Below are positions 50,901 to 61,850 of a stretch of 64,000 nt of DNA, piece after piece. The position numbers and the translations under genes were made by a program. Under the pieces are notes generated by a model that worked only from the letters and a program-made list of their open reading frames with translations, searched no databases and had not been told where the DNA came from. The DNA comes from Antedon mediterranea. Its lineage: Eukaryota; Echinodermata; Crinoidea; Comatulida; Antedonidae. The stretch is taken from contig NC_092677.1 of NCBI RefSeq assembly GCF_964355755.1, positions 4,159,001 to 4,223,000 of the forward strand. Direction: 5' to 3'. Numbering within the stretch: position 1 is the first letter of the stretch; each line of letters opens with the position of its first letter.

Positions 50901-53444
50901 TAAATTTAGACGGAGTCAAATCACAGCAAAAAAACCAAAAAACTTAACTATACTGTATTGTATAAAATCGGCATTTAAATATTATCAGTTATCAAGTTGC
51001 TGGTAGTATATAAGTGTCATTTTATAAAATAATGTGTTTGTACTGTCTAAGTAGTAATACATATCTTTTCTTTTGCTCATCTTTAGAATGATCTGCAACA
51101 TAAAGAAGTGATGACCAATTGGTATTAAAAAAATGTTTTACAAATTATTTTGATACTTTTTGGTTAATATTGACTCGGTTTTTTTAAAAAGAATAGTTTG
51201 TTAGACGCCTTTTGAGCAATGTGCTGGTGAACAGAGTGGAAAAGGAGAGAATGTGATTGGGATGGAAATACTATAGAGAATGAAGACAAGATTGTGACCA
51301 AAGACTGGGTTCACTTGAGAAAAAATGTGCAGCCTTGCGGGCAAAAGAGGATAGGTACACTGTATGTACGAAATGCTAAACGTCACCTATCTTTTGTAGG
51401 GGACCTAGACCGACAGTACATAAATGCTTTGTACTTTAAACAGAGACACTTGACTTTAAAAACTGTCACCCCTGTAAAGCTCTGTCTACACTACCAAACT
51501 ATCATGGACATGATGATGTCATATAACTACCTTACCATATTTGGGCATATCACTACCATATTTGGGCATATCACTACCATATTTGGGCATATCACTACCA
51601 TATTTGGGCATAGCACTACCATATTTGGGCATATCACTACCATATTTGGGCATATCACTACCATATTTGGGCATATCACTACCATATTTGGGCATATTAC
51701 TACCATATTTGGGCATATCACTACCATATTTGGGCATATCACTACCATATTTGGGCATATCACTACCATATTTGGGCATATCACTACCATATTTGTCAAA
51801 CTACTGTAGTGTACGCTACAGTACTTGGCAACTATTCAATTATTAGAATTTATTTAATGTATGTAGTTTGACTGTAAAAACAATGTCCCGGTTTTAATCC
51901 ATACAATTGAAATATTTTACGGACCTTGGACTGGTTGTTTTATCAAGATTACTTCACACATTTTCTGATAACCTGTCGCAGAATTCTTACTAAGTAAATT
52001 TTACCTGGACTAAACAAACAAAACAGTTCAGTAGTTATGCTTTATGAAATAGGTGGGTGGGCCGGCTACACACTCTCAATAACAGGGCAAGGGATTAGTT
52101 ATATTTATTGTACAAGTGTACAGTCAACTCTCACAATACAGGATTCACTGGACACCAGAAACTCTCTTTTAACTAAACTTTTTGGCCTCCAAAATCTGTT
52201 TCACAATAAAAACAGCCTAATTGTGTTCGGTATTGGGAGTGTTAGAACTACCTACTTATGAATCACTGGTCATTACTTGAAACAATGGAGTGATTCAACA
52301 AAACTAAAAAGTATTTAAAAGTGAAAGACAAAGGAGGAACACATTGTCACAATTATGTTAATCTCTGTCTACAATATCAACCTTTATGTAACAAAAAACA
52401 TGATGATGTCATATCACTACCACATTTGGGCACATCAAATTTTTTTTTTTTCAAATTAGTTTGATAGTGTAGATAGAGCTTTACAAGAAGGTATCATGTA
52501 GGCCTTCTGAATGTGATGTGCCCATATATAGACATGGTGATGTCATCACTACCATATTTTGGCACATCACGTTTTTTAGTCAAACTAGTTTGAGTGTAGA
52601 CAGAGCTTTACTGTACTGTAGGAGTGATTAAGAAACTTCAGACAATAAAGGTAGTATGAATATAATATTGCAAAATTAATAACAACACTAAATTACCAAT
52701 TCTCATATTTTGTTAGTCTTTTTATCATGCCTTCTTCTTCCATAAGCTTTAGAAGTTGTTGTTCCTCTTCTTCTGATCCGTCACATATATAAATACTGTC
52801 CGGTTTGCAGAGCTCTGCTTTTTCCAACACATACTCTTTGACGTGAGGTCGTAAGTCATTCACTGTCATCGACGACATGGCTGGATGTGTTGTTACTGTA
52901 AAACGTCTCAACTTTTGAAAACTGTTAAATGATTTGACCACAGAGGTACTTCTCCTAAAAAAAATAAAATTAATACAGTATATAATTGATTATGATTGCT
53001 TATAATAATTTAAAAAAAGTACGTCTGACAGTAGTCCAGACAATTCTTGGCTTATACTAAGACATGCTATTAGTTTGTTTAAAACAACTACAGATTAGAC
53101 CCAGGTAAATATTTTTTTGAAAAAGTAGATTTTCGATTAATTCTGACATTCAACATTAGTCATTACTGTTGTTGGAAATCTAAGAGCACATATTATTAGG
53201 ACTGTATTTCGAAGGCGTATATTTAAACCAACCAAACTGCTATAAATTACTAATATGAATGCGCTCTTTCAAACTGACACGTACGCCTAGGCTAGCCCCT
53301 CCTCCTACACAAACACAACAGGCATTGTTTAGTGTCCAGCAACAACCGGTTGGTTGGACGGTCCCTTCTTTTGAAGAGGCCTAGCTTCAAGATTATTTTT
53401 AACACTTTCACTTACCGTAACAGCTGAAATGTTAATAGTGTCAT
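44988..53444 (-). CDS. PCK: Phosphoenolpyruvate carboxykinase [GTP], mitochondrial-type, 9 exons, 651 aa
   Basis: Exons (minus): 53444-53416, 52954-52697, 49525-49341, 48858-48655, 48460-48273, 47733-47395, 46977-46776, 45985-45890, 45442-44988. All phases agree. It converts oxaloacetate + GTP to PEP + GDP + CO2 (gluconeogenesis/cataplerosis). Visible motifs: [18 protein letters not shown] (substrate-binding R108), [15 protein letters not shown] (K265/K266), P-loop FPSACGKTN (306-314, with C310), metal/kinase motif ECVGDDIAW (D332/D333), HPNSRFC, GGRRP, and guanine-site [15 protein letters not shown]. The N-terminus [17 protein letters not shown] has no acidic residue before D43 and is rich in R/K, a mitochondrial presequence. 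Length is close to human PCK2 (640). PCK1/PCK2 orthology is not assigned. Introns contain MITEs and a LINE relic. Confidence 0.97.
46015..46433 (+). mobile_element. Non-LTR retrotransposon 3' fragment in PCK intron 7
   Basis: Antisense to PCK. The frame [20 protein letters not shown] followed by ELKQFISS and a stop matches LINE ORF2 C-termini ('WN.LP..IR....SFK..LK'). It is followed by an AT microsatellite (46189-46210) and a tail ending in (AAAT)n near 46410-46433. Confidence 0.65.
46645..46750. repeat. Dispersed repeat D, copy 1 (PCK intron 7)
   Basis: Shares 'aatatgta.at.gtac', GCAGCCAGACATAAGATCAA, 'gttcctat.ttggca.ggc.agctca' and 'ggtcctgt' with 49017-49120, in the same order. Confidence 0.7.
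47121..47311. mobile_element. MITE copy 13 in PCK intron 6
   Basis: Left 'gatctgtctacactatcaaac', right TTAGTTTGATAATGTAGACA-GAGCT. Core GTGATGTGCCCATATACAGA and three 21-bp units. Confidence 0.8.
47990..48090 (+). mobile_element. LINE-like 3' tail in PCK intron 5
   Basis: 'gaggtcgagcctattcac', 'ggctcctcaactttatatttatatat', then (AAATG)n. The style is that of CR1/L2-type tails; no coding part was seen. Confidence 0.35.
49017..49120. repeat. Dispersed repeat D, copy 2 (PCK intron 3)
   Basis: Partner of 46645-46750. Immediately upstream (48950-49000) 'aacgggcacatctttgggaccaaaaaggtgtctcc' is another pogo/Tc1-like terminal remnant. Confidence 0.7.
51475..51821. mobile_element. MITE copy 14 with internal unit expanded to about 13 copies
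   Basis: Left AGCTCTGTCTACACTACCAA, then GGACATGATGATGTCATATA. About 51533-51796 holds thirteen 21-bp units (CATATTTGGG+CATATCACTAC) with very few substitutions, then 'gtcaaactactgtagtgtacgct' as a decayed right end. Because 21 is divisible by 3, open frames run through it on both strands; these are not genes. It lies in PCK intron 2. Confidence 0.9.
52115..52235. mobile_element. Pogo/Tc1-like terminal remnant
   Basis: 'acagtcaactctcacaatacaggattcactggacacc' followed by 'aactttttggcctccaaa' has the wording of a degraded DNA-transposon terminus. It lies in PCK intron 2. Confidence 0.3.
52358..52484. mobile_element. MITE copy 15 in PCK intron 2
   Basis: TTA + ATCTCTGTCTACAATATCAA at the left, GTTTGATAGTGTAGATAGAG at the right, then TTA. 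One 21-bp unit. Confidence 0.8.
52509..52610. mobile_element. MITE copy 16, left-truncated
   Basis: GTGATGTGCCCATATATAGA, one 21-bp unit, then CTAGTTTGAGTGTAGACAGA. It ends 86 bases from the PCK exon 2 donor. Confidence 0.75.
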
Positions 53445-54660: not shown

Positions 54661-54692
54661 CTTAGTGAGGATATGACGAGAACTACGGACAT
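54661..54692 (-). CDS. Candidate alternative first coding exon of PCK
   Basis: On the minus strand ATG at 54692 opens MSVVLVISSL plus AG, then a consensus donor GTAAGT at 54660-54655. It ends in the same phase as the 53444 exon. Joining to 52954 gives [18 protein letters not shown], leaving the presequence basic. It could instead be a 5' UTR exon whose ATG is coincidental. Confidence 0.4.
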
Positions 54693-56650: not shown

Positions 56651-56679
56651 AATGTTAGTGCAATAATTAAATTAAATAA

Positions 56680-57062
56680 AATTAATTAAAAATTTGCTTT
56701 AAATTAAAATTCTATCCCATAGTTGGCTTATACTTAAAAATTAATTAAACAATTTTCTTTAAAATAAAATTCTATCCCATAGTTGGCTTATATTTAAAAA
56801 TTAATTAAAAATTTTCTTTAAATTAAAATTCTATCCCATAGTTGGCTTATACTTAAAAATTAATTAAACAATTTTCTTTAAATTAAAATGCTATCCCATA
56901 GTTGGCTTATATTTAAAAATTAATTAAACATTTTCTTTAGCCTAAATTAAAATGCTATCCCATAGTTGGCTTATATTTAAAAATTAATTAAAAATTTTCT
57001 TTAAAGTAAAATTCTATCCCATAATTGGCTTATATTTAAAAATCAATTAAAAATTGATTTTA
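56680..57062. repeat. Tandem repeat, unit about 59-63 bp, 6 copies
   Basis: CTATCCCATAGTTGGCTTAT recurs at about 56711, 56771, 56830, 56890, 56953 and 57014, each followed by '(a/c)ttaaaaattaattaaa.aattttctttaaa'. Confidence 0.95.
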
Positions 57063-58016
57063 ATTTATTTCTTGATTATTTAAGAGGCCAATATGACGTC
57101 ATGTGGCGATACGAAATTTTCTCAAAATTGTCATAATATAGCTTTCTTTCTTTTATTTCGAATTTGTTTTTTGATCTGGAAGTTCATCATATTCCCACTG
57201 TGCTTTCCTATCTTTTGTTTAACTGTTTGTTGAAAGGAAATTGTACAGTAGCAGTATAATGTATTGTTATTCAGTGACATTTATCAAATTTGTATTTTAA
57301 TTACTTATTAATATATTTTATTAATCCTCCGTATTTATTGATGATCTTTTATTTATTTCTATTGTTTGTAAATTACACAAACGAAGTCATTATTTGGTCT
57401 CACGCCAAAAATTAATTATTTAAATTTATAATTAAATTAGAGGTGTTATATATTTATATATACACATTTATTCACGAGACTGGTGTATACAGCACAACTG
57501 TTGTTTTTACACAAGTTCGTGATGATATATGTAAAACTAATCGTTGGAAACGCTCTACCATCCCATAACATTATTGATAGAATGAATGAAGCTTCTCAAA
57601 CTAAAACTTTGTAGGTTTGCAACATTAATAATAATGAACGAAGTAATGAATACCACATGCCTTGGTTTATGACTGAATCTGGGTCTTTTGGCATTTTAAT
57701 AATTTTAACAACTTTTATAGCTATTTTTAATAACTAATTTTAACTAATTTAATAGTTAATAATTCATTCATAATAACATTTATTTCTTATCTTTCAAAGT
57801 AAACGAAATAACAATTTAAATATAAATAATTCAGAGGCAAAACCCAGAAAGTAATAAAATTTGGAAAAAATAGTGATAATTAATAAAACACTATATAAAT
57901 ACAAAAAAAAGAAAGAAACATTTTAAAAGAAAATTACAGCAAAATCCCTTCCGCTATTTAGTACCACCGGTATAAATAAAAACAAGTTAAAGACAAATAA
58001 AAAATCTTTTAAACGC
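57063..58016. other. AT-rich DNA 3' of the PCK-like gene
   Basis: No feature was recognised. Minus-strand polyadenylation motifs are not clear close to the stop at 58017. Confidence 0.4.
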
Positions 58017-59324
58017 TCAAAAAGGATTATTTAAAATTGCTAAGAACCTTGATTCTGAAAGTGTGGAACCTCTTTTGGAAATGGCAACACATTTACAGCG
58101 GTCAACCTCCTTGATGAGGTCAAGAAGTGATCGTTCTTTTTCTTCAGAACCGTCACATCTATCAATGCTGTATGGTCTGCAGATCTCAGCCATCTCCATG
58201 ACGTCTTTGACGCCAGGTGTAAAGTTATTCTCTTTCATCTCAGCCATTGCGGGGTGTGTTGTGTTTGTAAAGCCTCTCTTTCCCGTCATCACAGCCATTG
58301 CGGGATGTGTTGGCAATGTAAAACCTCTCTTTCCCGTCATCACAGCCATTGCGGGATGTGTTGTGTTTGTAAAACCTCTTTTTCCAGTCATGGTAGCCTT
58401 TGCTGGATGTGTTGTGTTTGTAAAACCTCTCTTTCCAGTCATGGTAGCCAATGCGGGATGTGTTGTGTTTGTAAAACCTCTCTTTCCCATCATCACAGCC
58501 ATTGCTGGATGTGTTGTGTTTGTAAAACCTCTCTTTCCCGTCATGGTAGCCATTGCTGGATGTGTTGTGTTTGTAAAACCTCTCTTTCCAGTCATGGTAG
58601 CCATTGGGGGATGTGTTGTGTTTGTAAAACCTCTCTTTCCAGTCATGGTAGCCATTGCTGGATGTGTTGTGTTTGTAAAACTTCTCTTTCCAGTCATGGT
58701 AGCCATTGCTGGATGTGTTGTGTTTGTAAAACCCCTCTTTCCTGTCATCACAGCCATTGCTGGATGTGTTTTGTTTGTAAAACCTCTCTTTCCCGTCATC
58801 ACAGCCATTGCTGGATGTGTTGTGTTTGTAAAACCTCTCTTTCCCGTCATCATAGCCATTGCGGGATGTGTTGTGTTTGTAAAACCTCTCAACTGTTGAA
58901 CATTGTTGAATGTTTTGACCACAGAGGTACTTCTAAAAAACAAATAATAAATGCGATTCCGGTAAAATTAGGCGCTAACGTTAATTATTGACAATTGAAA
59001 CCAGTCAACGACCTCAATTAAGAGGACGATTGAAAGAAAAGCTCTGTCTACACTATCAAACTTTATTTGAAAAAAAAAGTGATTTGCCCATATTAGACAT
59101 GATAATGTCATCACTATTTGGGCATATCACTACCTCATTTGGGCAGATCACTACCATATTTGGGCAGATCACACTTTATTTTTGTCAAACTAATTTGATA
59201 GTGTAGACACTACAATAATTAATACACAAGTAGAGCTTCAGAACAAAAAGTAATGGAAGTCAAAAATTCTAATCGTGCTTGACTGCCATAGCACTTGTAC
59301 TTACCGCAACAGTCGAAGTGCCAT
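58017..59324 (-). CDS. PCK-derived gene: presequence-repeat protein without kinase domain, 2 exons, 311 aa
   Basis: Exon 1 is 59324-59305 (MALRLL plus CG, donor GTAAGT). Exon 2 is 58932-58017 (acceptor TTTTTTAG, stop TGA). Phases match, and both junctions sit where those of PCK exons 1-2 do. The product starts MALRLLRSTSVVKTFNNVQQ (compare [16 protein letters not shown]). It then has thirteen 17-residue repeats of consensus RGFTNTTHPAMAVMTGK (residues 22-242), one copy of which aligns with the single PCK segment [14 protein letters not shown]. The end (NFTPGVKDV..AEICRPYSIDRCDGSEEKE..LLDLI) matches the start of mature PCK, but then diverges and stops. There is no acidic residue in about the first 235 positions. 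It has no catalytic domain. It may be a functional novel protein, a decaying partial duplicate, or a source of alternative first exons. Expression is unknown. Confidence 0.7.
58227..58889 (-). repeat. 51-bp coding minisatellite, 13 units
   Basis: Exactly 13 x 51 bp with no indels. Two interspersed subtypes differ mainly in one block, giving MAVMTGK or MATMTGK. Singletons include K for T, S for G, P for A, L or K for M, and LP for NT. The first and last units grade into the flanking PCK-like sequence, so the unit arose from the presequence itself. Confidence 0.95.
59037..59213. mobile_element. MITE copy 17, in intron 1 of the PCK-derived gene
   Basis: Left AGCTCTGTCTACACTATCAA, right TAATTTGATAGTGTAGACAC. 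Core GTGATTTGCCCATATTAGAC and three 21-bp units with CAGATC variants. Confidence 0.85.
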
Positions 59325-60737: not shown

Positions 60738-61850
60738 AACTCCGATATAACTCCGATGTATTCCTACCTCCGATATAACTCCGATTTATTCCTCCGATGT
60801 ATTCCTCCGATATAACTCCGATGTATTCCTCCGATATAACTCCGATGTATTCCTCCGATATAACTCCGATGTATTCCTCCGATATAACTCCGATGTATTC
60901 CTCCGATATAACTCCGATGTATTCCTCCGATATAACTCCGATGTATTCCTCCGATATAACTCCGATGTATTCCTCCAATATAACTCCGATGTATTCCTCC
61001 GATATAACTCCGATGTATTCCTCCGATATAACTTTGATGTATTCCTCCGATATAACTCCGATGTATTCCTACGATATAACTCCGATGTATTCCTCCGATA
61101 TAACTCCGATGTATTCCTACCTCCGATATAACTCCGATGTATTCCTCCGATATAACTCCGATGTATTCCTCCGATATAACTCCGATGTATTCCTCCAATA
61201 TAACTCCGATGTATTCCTCCGATATAACTCCGATGTATTCCTCCGATATAACTCCGATGTATTCCTCCGATATAACTCCGATGTATTCCTCCGATATAAC
61301 TTCGATGTATTCCTCCGATATAACTCCGATGTATTCCTCCGATATAACTCCGATGTATTCCTCCGATATAACTCCGATGTATTCCTCCAATATAACTCCG
61401 ATGTATTCCTCCGATATAACTCCGATGTATTCCTCCGATATAACTCCGATGTATTCCTCCGATATAACTCCGATGTATTCCTCCGATATAACTCCGATGT
61501 ATTCCTCCAATATAACTCCGATGTATTCCTCCGATATAACTCCGATGTATTCCTACCTCCGATATAACTCCGATATATTCCTCCGATATAACTCCGATGT
61601 ATTCCTCCGATATAACTCCGATGTATTCCTCCGATATAACTCCGATGTATTCCTCCGATATAACTCCGATGTATTCCTCCGATATAACTCCGATGTATTC
61701 CTACCTCCGATATAACTCCGATGTATTCCTCCGATATAACTCCGATGTATTCCTACCTCCGATATAACTCCGATGTATTCCTCCGATATAACTCCGATGT
61801 ATTCCTTCGATATAACTCCGATATATTCTTCGATATAACTCCAAAGATTT
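60738..61850. repeat. 24-bp satellite array, about 45 units
   Basis: The unit CTCCGATATAA+CTCCGATGTATTC is itself two diverged half-units. Five units carry a 4-bp ACCT insertion (near 60766, 61118, 61555, 61702, 61755), which breaks the frame. Because 24 is divisible by 3, long frames of 8-residue repeats (YSSDITPM, EEYIGVIS) appear on both strands. They have no start context or splice sites and are not genes. Confidence 0.97.

Follow-up and report, generated by a model that had tools for sequence, protein, structure and literature searches.

A truncated copy of PCK exons 1 and 2 with an in-frame 51-bp minisatellite in Antedon mediterranea

The window, i.e. the entire 64-kb stretch of DNA that was analysed, belongs to a 354-Mb assembly of 18 contigs and contains PCK, a GTP-type PEPCK gene located on the minus strand. 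A diverged second version of PCK exons 1 and 2 is present ∼5.9 kb upstream of this gene, likewise on the minus strand, and carries a tandem array of 51-bp units within its reading frame. This locus raises the question of whether the copy specifies a product in which a mitochondrial cleavage segment is used many times over, or whether the array is a minisatellite that has grown in a shortened gene copy.

Organization and origin of the PCK copy

The joined frame of the copy (59324–59305 and 58932–58017, minus strand) comprises 20 and 913 coding bases, i.e. 311 codons. The start codon (ATG, 59324–59322, minus strand) has A at −3 and G at +4, and the coding part of exon 1′ (59305–59324, minus strand) specifies MALRLL and two nucleotides of an R codon and is similar to PCK exon 1b. 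The sequence of exon 1′ is ATGGCACTTCGACTGTTGCG, followed by GTAAGT, and its last base is 59305 (donor GCG|GTAAGT). The intron occupies positions 58933–59304 (minus strand), and the acceptor TTTTTTAG directly precedes the start of exon 2′ (58017–58932, minus strand; read as terminal), which completes the R codon and adds 304 codons. Exon 2′ consists, in order, of the opening segment STSVVKTFNNVQQL, the array (58227–58889, minus strand), a PEPCK-like tail (58017–58226, minus strand), and a TGA stop codon (58019–58017, minus strand). The coordinates and the 311-aa frame given in the initial annotation, including the ATG, the 59305/58932 junction, and the stop codon, were all found to be correct. 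The tail (NFTPGVKD...CDGSEEKERSLLDLIKEVD) resembles the N-terminus of PEPCK, as had been proposed for ∼70 residues, but its last 27 residues have no clear PCK homology. The nearest AATAAA (57779–57784, minus strand) lies 233 nt past the stop codon, in an AT-rich region where such a hexamer is weak evidence.

Several other repeats were observed around the copy. A palindromic, MITE-like element with ends like AAGCTCTGTCTACACTATCAAACT is present at 51474–51800, 52400–52480, 52520–52610, and 59040–59215 (limits set by eye), the last of these lying in the intron of the copy; its internal 21-bp unit, TACCATATTTGGGCATATCAC, has been amplified to varying extents, up to 12.5 copies. About six copies of an AT-rich 59-bp unit are located between the copy and PCK (56678–57055).

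The parental counterparts of exons 1′ and 2′ are PCK exon 1b (53416–53444, minus strand), which encodes MTLLTFQLL and two nucleotides of an R codon, and PCK exon 2 (52697–52951, minus strand), the acceptor of which may be 3 nt earlier. Two blastn matches between exon 2′ and PCK exon 2 (E values of 3e-23 and 5e-20) flank the array, each including one unit. Exons 1′ and 1b, which also have in common a short similar stretch 5′ of the ATG, align with a 9-bp in-frame gap and share the donor and the intron position, whereas the two introns are no more similar than shuffled sequences (98 of 200 shuffles are at least as similar). The only gaps in the compared coding part are of 9 and 3 bp. The similarity of the exons exceeds chance and points to common descent of exons 1 and 2 of the copy and of PCK. 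PCK may also have a further first exon at 54661–54692 (minus strand; ATG...CTAAG|GTAAGT, donor score 11.8); it ends in phase 2, as does exon 1b, and would place MSVVLVISSLR ahead of the shared exon 2.

Like the GTP-type PEPCKs (PCK1/PCK2; PF17297 + PF00821), the copy has homologous exons 1 and 2, a presequence end, and the CDGSEE segment, but it differs from them in the absence of catalytic exons, a PEPCK_N match below the cut-off, and the inserted array. All four exon matches listed for the catalytic domain PEPCK_GTP (PF00821) in a search of the assembly are in PCK, PEPCK_N (PF17297) exons occur once at accepted scores (in PCK), and no catalytic remnants of the copy were found elsewhere in the assembly at accepted scores; the single sub-threshold PEPCK_N match (E 0.27) has an internal stop. 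The blastn matches, the shared donor, and this search bear out the earlier proposal that exons 1 and 2 had been duplicated upstream of PCK without the catalytic exons. With the array collapsed, the copy scores 15.3 bits against PEPCK_N (PF17297), the cut-off being 23.8. Of the 25 residues that PCK shares with a cytosolic PEPCK of solved structure in 44 aligned columns, the copy has kept 15 and, by this measure, is relaxed as a PEPCK piece.

The start codon, the splice sites, and the frame are preserved over 84 of the 94 PCK codons. Because these features have been kept while the similarity of the introns is gone, the copy appears to have long been a translatable two-exon gene. The 10 full codons with which PCK exon 2 ends (after EEEG) have no in-frame match in the copy, and their alignment needs gaps of 3, 1, 5, and 4 bp; the frame may thus have been lost at the end of PCK exon 2, which weakens the test of constraint described below.

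Evolution of the array and of the flanking exon sequence

The array unit reads RGFTNTTHPAMA[T/V/M]MTGK. Twelve full 51-bp units (58278–58889) are followed by a 13th (58227–58277), which has diverged over its last five codons (3′ end). The array had been described as a perfect 13 × 51-bp array; this holds for the register, which is kept in all 13 units with no indel and no stop codon, but not for identity (mean pairwise value for the 12 full units 0.906, range 0.78–0.98). The variants at residue 13 of the unit (T, V, and M) form interspersed blocks, a pattern that unequal exchange would leave. The repeated 17-mer is the counterpart of the presumed presequence end of PCK plus the beginning of the mature part; thus, what has been amplified is not the whole presequence, as the heading of the initial annotation had it, but, in line with the text of that annotation, its presumed cleavage-site end, together with the first mature residues.

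Changes among the 12 full units were reduced to 18 events, 13 nonsynonymous and 5 synonymous, which were distributed over codon positions 1, 2, and 3 as 6, 5, and 7. Given an expected synonymous share of 0.234, this comparison between units, which had been suggested as a check, revealed no sign of selection (p=0.42; omega about 0.8), and the changes in the array look neutral. Non-functional expansion, one of the options raised at the outset, is the best fit for such near-neutral change. In the coding frame of the unit, 1.5% of substitutions give a stop codon, and the probability of no stop in 18 events is 0.77; four of the six reading frames are open over the 12 full units. The cautions that openness in itself proves nothing and that other frames are open too were therefore well founded. 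Similarly, a random single substitution in the unit gives D or E in ∼5% of cases, and the probability of none in 18 events is 0.37. The first D/E of the predicted protein is residue 238, in agreement with the ∼235 acid-free residues reported earlier. Both the acid-free composition and the openness of the array result from the repetition of one unit; these properties carry no functional weight and make the locus a warning case.

Coding minisatellites are a class of in-frame tandem repeats in exons, and the array is likewise a tandem in-frame unit within an open, predicted exon. It further resembles them in its head-to-tail arrangement, a unit length that is a multiple of 3, interspersed blocks of variants, and near-neutral change. 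Unlike in other coding minisatellites, the unit happens to be the presumed cleavage segment of the presequence encoded by a duplicated metabolic gene.

A DNA search of the assembly with the unit listed six matches, all within the array, and thus no second array, which does not prove absence elsewhere. A protein search listed 61 places, and, beyond the array (either strand) and PCK exon 2 (55%), identities were at most 36%, with many matches running across stop codons. Four of the matching regions, chosen via a query that itself has a 17-residue period, were fetched and rejected as relatives of the unit, as they are tandem arrays of different sequence, the period being 51 bp in three. All four are open for hundreds of codons and have no link to PCK. 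At the DNA level, the likeness of their units to that of the PCK copy is at shuffle level in three, and for the fourth, L017, 6 of 200 shuffles were at least as similar, a result not counted as significant among four tests. The L017 array (G000:C9:1591600-1592500) consists of 14 identical 51-bp units, FVNTWNMLLAPDISSEP on one strand (TRF 100% match), and is open in both directions. Another of these arrays, L015 (G000:C2:171700-173800), contains 36 copies of a different 51-bp unit, YNIKNNSYSTLVHTMGK, is open for 391 codons, and is no more like the unit of the PCK copy than shuffled DNA is.

In total, seven distinct arrays with a period of at least 15 and at least four copies were identified in the window, including that of the PCK copy. 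One of the seven, with 43 copies of the 24-bp unit CTCCGATGTATTCCTCCGATATAA, lies 1.5 kb upstream of the copy (60792–61842) and is open in several frames. Sampling of 11 stretches elsewhere (110 kb) yielded 36 non-overlapping arrays, seven of which have a period of at least 15 and at least four copies and are distributed over five of the 11 stretches. Because minisatellites, 51-bp ones among them, are common in this genome, it is not very surprising that one has landed in an exon.

The sequence outside the array was compared with PCK over 79 codons, i.e. 6 codons of exon 1, 25 codons from the start of exon 2 into unit 1, and 48 codons from unit 13 to LIKEVD. A codon model gave a dS of 0.65 and NG86 one of 0.62 (bootstrap range 0.36–1.14), and omega was 0.38–0.39 (0.18–0.74). 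An omega of 1 was rejected for all 79 codons (LRT 7.7) and for the 48-codon segment (LRT 5.66), but not for the 25-codon segment ahead of the array when taken by itself (LRT 0.59), and a neutral copy branch beside a constrained PCK (omega 0.55) was not rejected either (LRT 1.1). The dS values before and after the array were 0.26 (25 codons) and 1.02 (48 codons), respectively; gene conversion by PCK could be the cause of the lower value, both samples being small.

Neutral decay was simulated for 84 codons with 5000 runs per branch length, under an assumed indel rate of 8% of substitutions, 80% of them frameshifting. The probability that neither a stop codon nor a frameshift appears was 0.064 and 0.032 at branch lengths of 0.10 and 0.13, 0.006 at 0.20, and 0.0002 at 0.32, and no run (0/5000) remained intact at 0.50. 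The codon counts and the simulation cover PCK exon 2 up to its 10 terminal full codons, which were left out, and the results are subject to ascertainment, as the locus drew notice for being open. The flanks of the array look as though they had been under coding constraint in the past, and the copy was probably translated for much of its history.

Alternative readings of the locus

The question of mitochondrial processing arises from the cleavage motifs in the array. In the R-10 rule, as given in PMC7996597, MPP and then MIP cut at R-X|(F/L/I)-XX-(S/T/G)-XXXX|. This pattern (R at −10, F/L/I at −8, and S/T/G at −5) is present in 11 of the 13 units, with K and P at −5 in units 3 and 12, respectively, and R-x-F-T is present in all 13. 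According to section 6 of PMC10450427, short sites, whether internal or in tandem, can be cut by MPP, for which F-S-T or F-H-T at P1′–P3′ is favourable; cleavage was complete at an 11-residue site that combined one of these tripeptides with K at −3, whereas shortened, glycine-linked sites with K at −3 are cut inefficiently, and a distal arginine is important. The array unit has F-T-N after the putative MPP site and K at −3, and the nearest arginine further upstream is at a distance of 17 residues. In light of the latter two features and the cited section, cutting within the array is plausible but poorly supported. The N-terminus of the copy has a net charge of +4 and no D/E in its first 30 residues, and that of PCK is also basic and acid-free. 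The helical moment of the former is 0.434, the mean of its own shuffles being 0.449, and that of PCK 1b is 0.60 against a shuffle mean of 0.508, with 21% of shuffles reaching 0.60.

If the copy were a mitochondrial precursor, its N-terminus would lead it to the matrix, where MPP and MIP would cut every unit (RG|FTNTTHPA|M or RGF|TN), so that short repeated peptides (FTNTTHPA, MATMTGKRG, or TNTTHPAMATMTGKRGF) would be released or the enzymes would be kept occupied as by a decoy. The frequent motifs, the basic start, the acid-free stretch, and the nearness of F-T-N to the favoured F-S-T and F-H-T fit such a precursor. However, the motif was inherited, as PCK itself carries it, and its repetition is thus no independent evidence; T at −5 is missing in two units, the amphipathic moment is no higher than that of shuffles, purifying selection was not seen in the array, and both the K at −3 and the remote arginine are unfavourable by the cited section. 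We regard this reading as distinctly unlikely, and no evidence was found for the decoy or peptide-release options put forward initially; such a role is possible, but unsupported. Even less probable, in our judgement, is its strongest version, in which the duplicated presequence has become a gene of its own, a precursor with a dozen serial MPP/MIP sites that titrates import and processing or releases repeated peptides beside the parent enzyme gene. More than one basic MPP-type motif is also a feature of known multi-site precursors (the N-acetylglutamate kinase/reductase polyprotein, Neurospora Su9 with two sites, and engineered tandem S10 sites; PMC10450427), in which the sites separate functional proteins or end a presequence, whereas the copy has only repeats between the putative sites. 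No report of an amplified presequence or PCK fragment gene was present among the matches listed for the PCK, presequence, and MPP literature, a scope outside which most subscription journals fall. A secreted precursor would use the junctions differently. GKR is a processing and amidation rule, and it separates the peptide units of multi-copy neuropeptide precursors, as it does the array units (12 of 12 junctions), so that amidated GFTNTTHPAMATMT-type peptides might be released; the invariance of GKR is, by our own reckoning, unsurprising with so few events. Unlike those precursors, the copy derives from a mitochondrial enzyme and has no signal peptide. By simple hydropathy rather than a trained predictor, the best 9-residue value at the MALRLLR... 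start is 0.51, and the best among three candidate first exons (ATG and a phase-2 donor of at least 4, at most 250 nt, in the window upstream of the acceptor) is 1.32, inside a repeat; no hydrophobic start was found in exon 1′ or in the other two candidates. This argues against a neuropeptide-like product, for which there is only the faintest chance.

A structural role, in which the array would form a beta-solenoid with 17 residues per turn, rests on the best AlphaFold2 model, made without relatives, in which strands are stacked with a pLDDT of about 76–90 along most of the array. Mean values for the remaining four models are 53–59, a PDB search with the model gave nothing at E <0.001 (best 0.13), and, in section 3.2.1 of PMC11795689, AlphaFold2 confidently modelled 32 of 78 random proteins made of perfect repeats as beta-solenoids. 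This bias, as reported in that section, and the lack of a PDB match leave little weight on the fold, although an out-of-frame translation of the array DNA reached a mean pLDDT of only 46.6, which speaks against dismissing it altogether; we consider it extremely improbable. Alternatively, exons 1′ and 2′ might be alternative 5′ exons of PCK, exon 2′ being joined to PCK exon 3 to yield PCK with an array-extended presequence. The copy lies upstream on the same strand, and a GT in the right phase (2) is available at 58047 (AAG|GTTCTT), but this donor is very weak, scoring 0.98 against 10.4 for exon 1′ and 3.86 for PCK exon 2, with weights taken from general donor frequencies. It is the sole phase-2 GT among the 10 scored, which lie between 58240 and the stop codon, and no good donor was found 3′ of the array. 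A two-exon gene is the best reading of the copy, and splicing into PCK is highly improbable. The remaining alternative is a dead gene, an unexpressed relic with an open frame owed to chance and to the array. The retention of just 15 of 25 residues, the low PEPCK_N score, the near-neutral array, a pairwise omega that fits a neutral copy branch, and the lack of an in-frame counterpart to the end of PCK exon 2 favour it; the retained start codon, strong donor, acceptor, and frame stand against it, as does the expectation from neutral decay of stops or frameshifts within the 84 codons tested. We consider a dead gene unlikely.

Preferred explanation and its meaning

The explanation that we rather favour is a non-catalytic, formerly constrained PCK fragment containing a drifting in-frame minisatellite. 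Tandem duplication would have placed a copy of exons 1 and 2, devoid of the catalytic exons, upstream of PCK, and this copy probably remained a translatable two-exon gene for much of the time since. It now lacks the donor of PCK exon 2 and reads on into a new stop codon, and a 51-bp minisatellite would have arisen in exon 2′ over the presequence end and spread, presumably by unequal exchange. Since 51 is divisible by 3 and near-stop codons are scarce in the unit, the array could be tolerated and drift; it would itself be a passenger. Past translation of the copy is probable and may continue today; if translated, its product would most likely be imported into mitochondria, or degraded, as a non-enzymatic protein.

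If translated and imported, the copy would be a natural test of MPP and MIP on many serial cleavage sites and would represent a targeting peptide that evolves apart from its cargo. If not, it would still be a clear case of an in-frame minisatellite growing in a shortened gene copy, with flanks that look formerly constrained.
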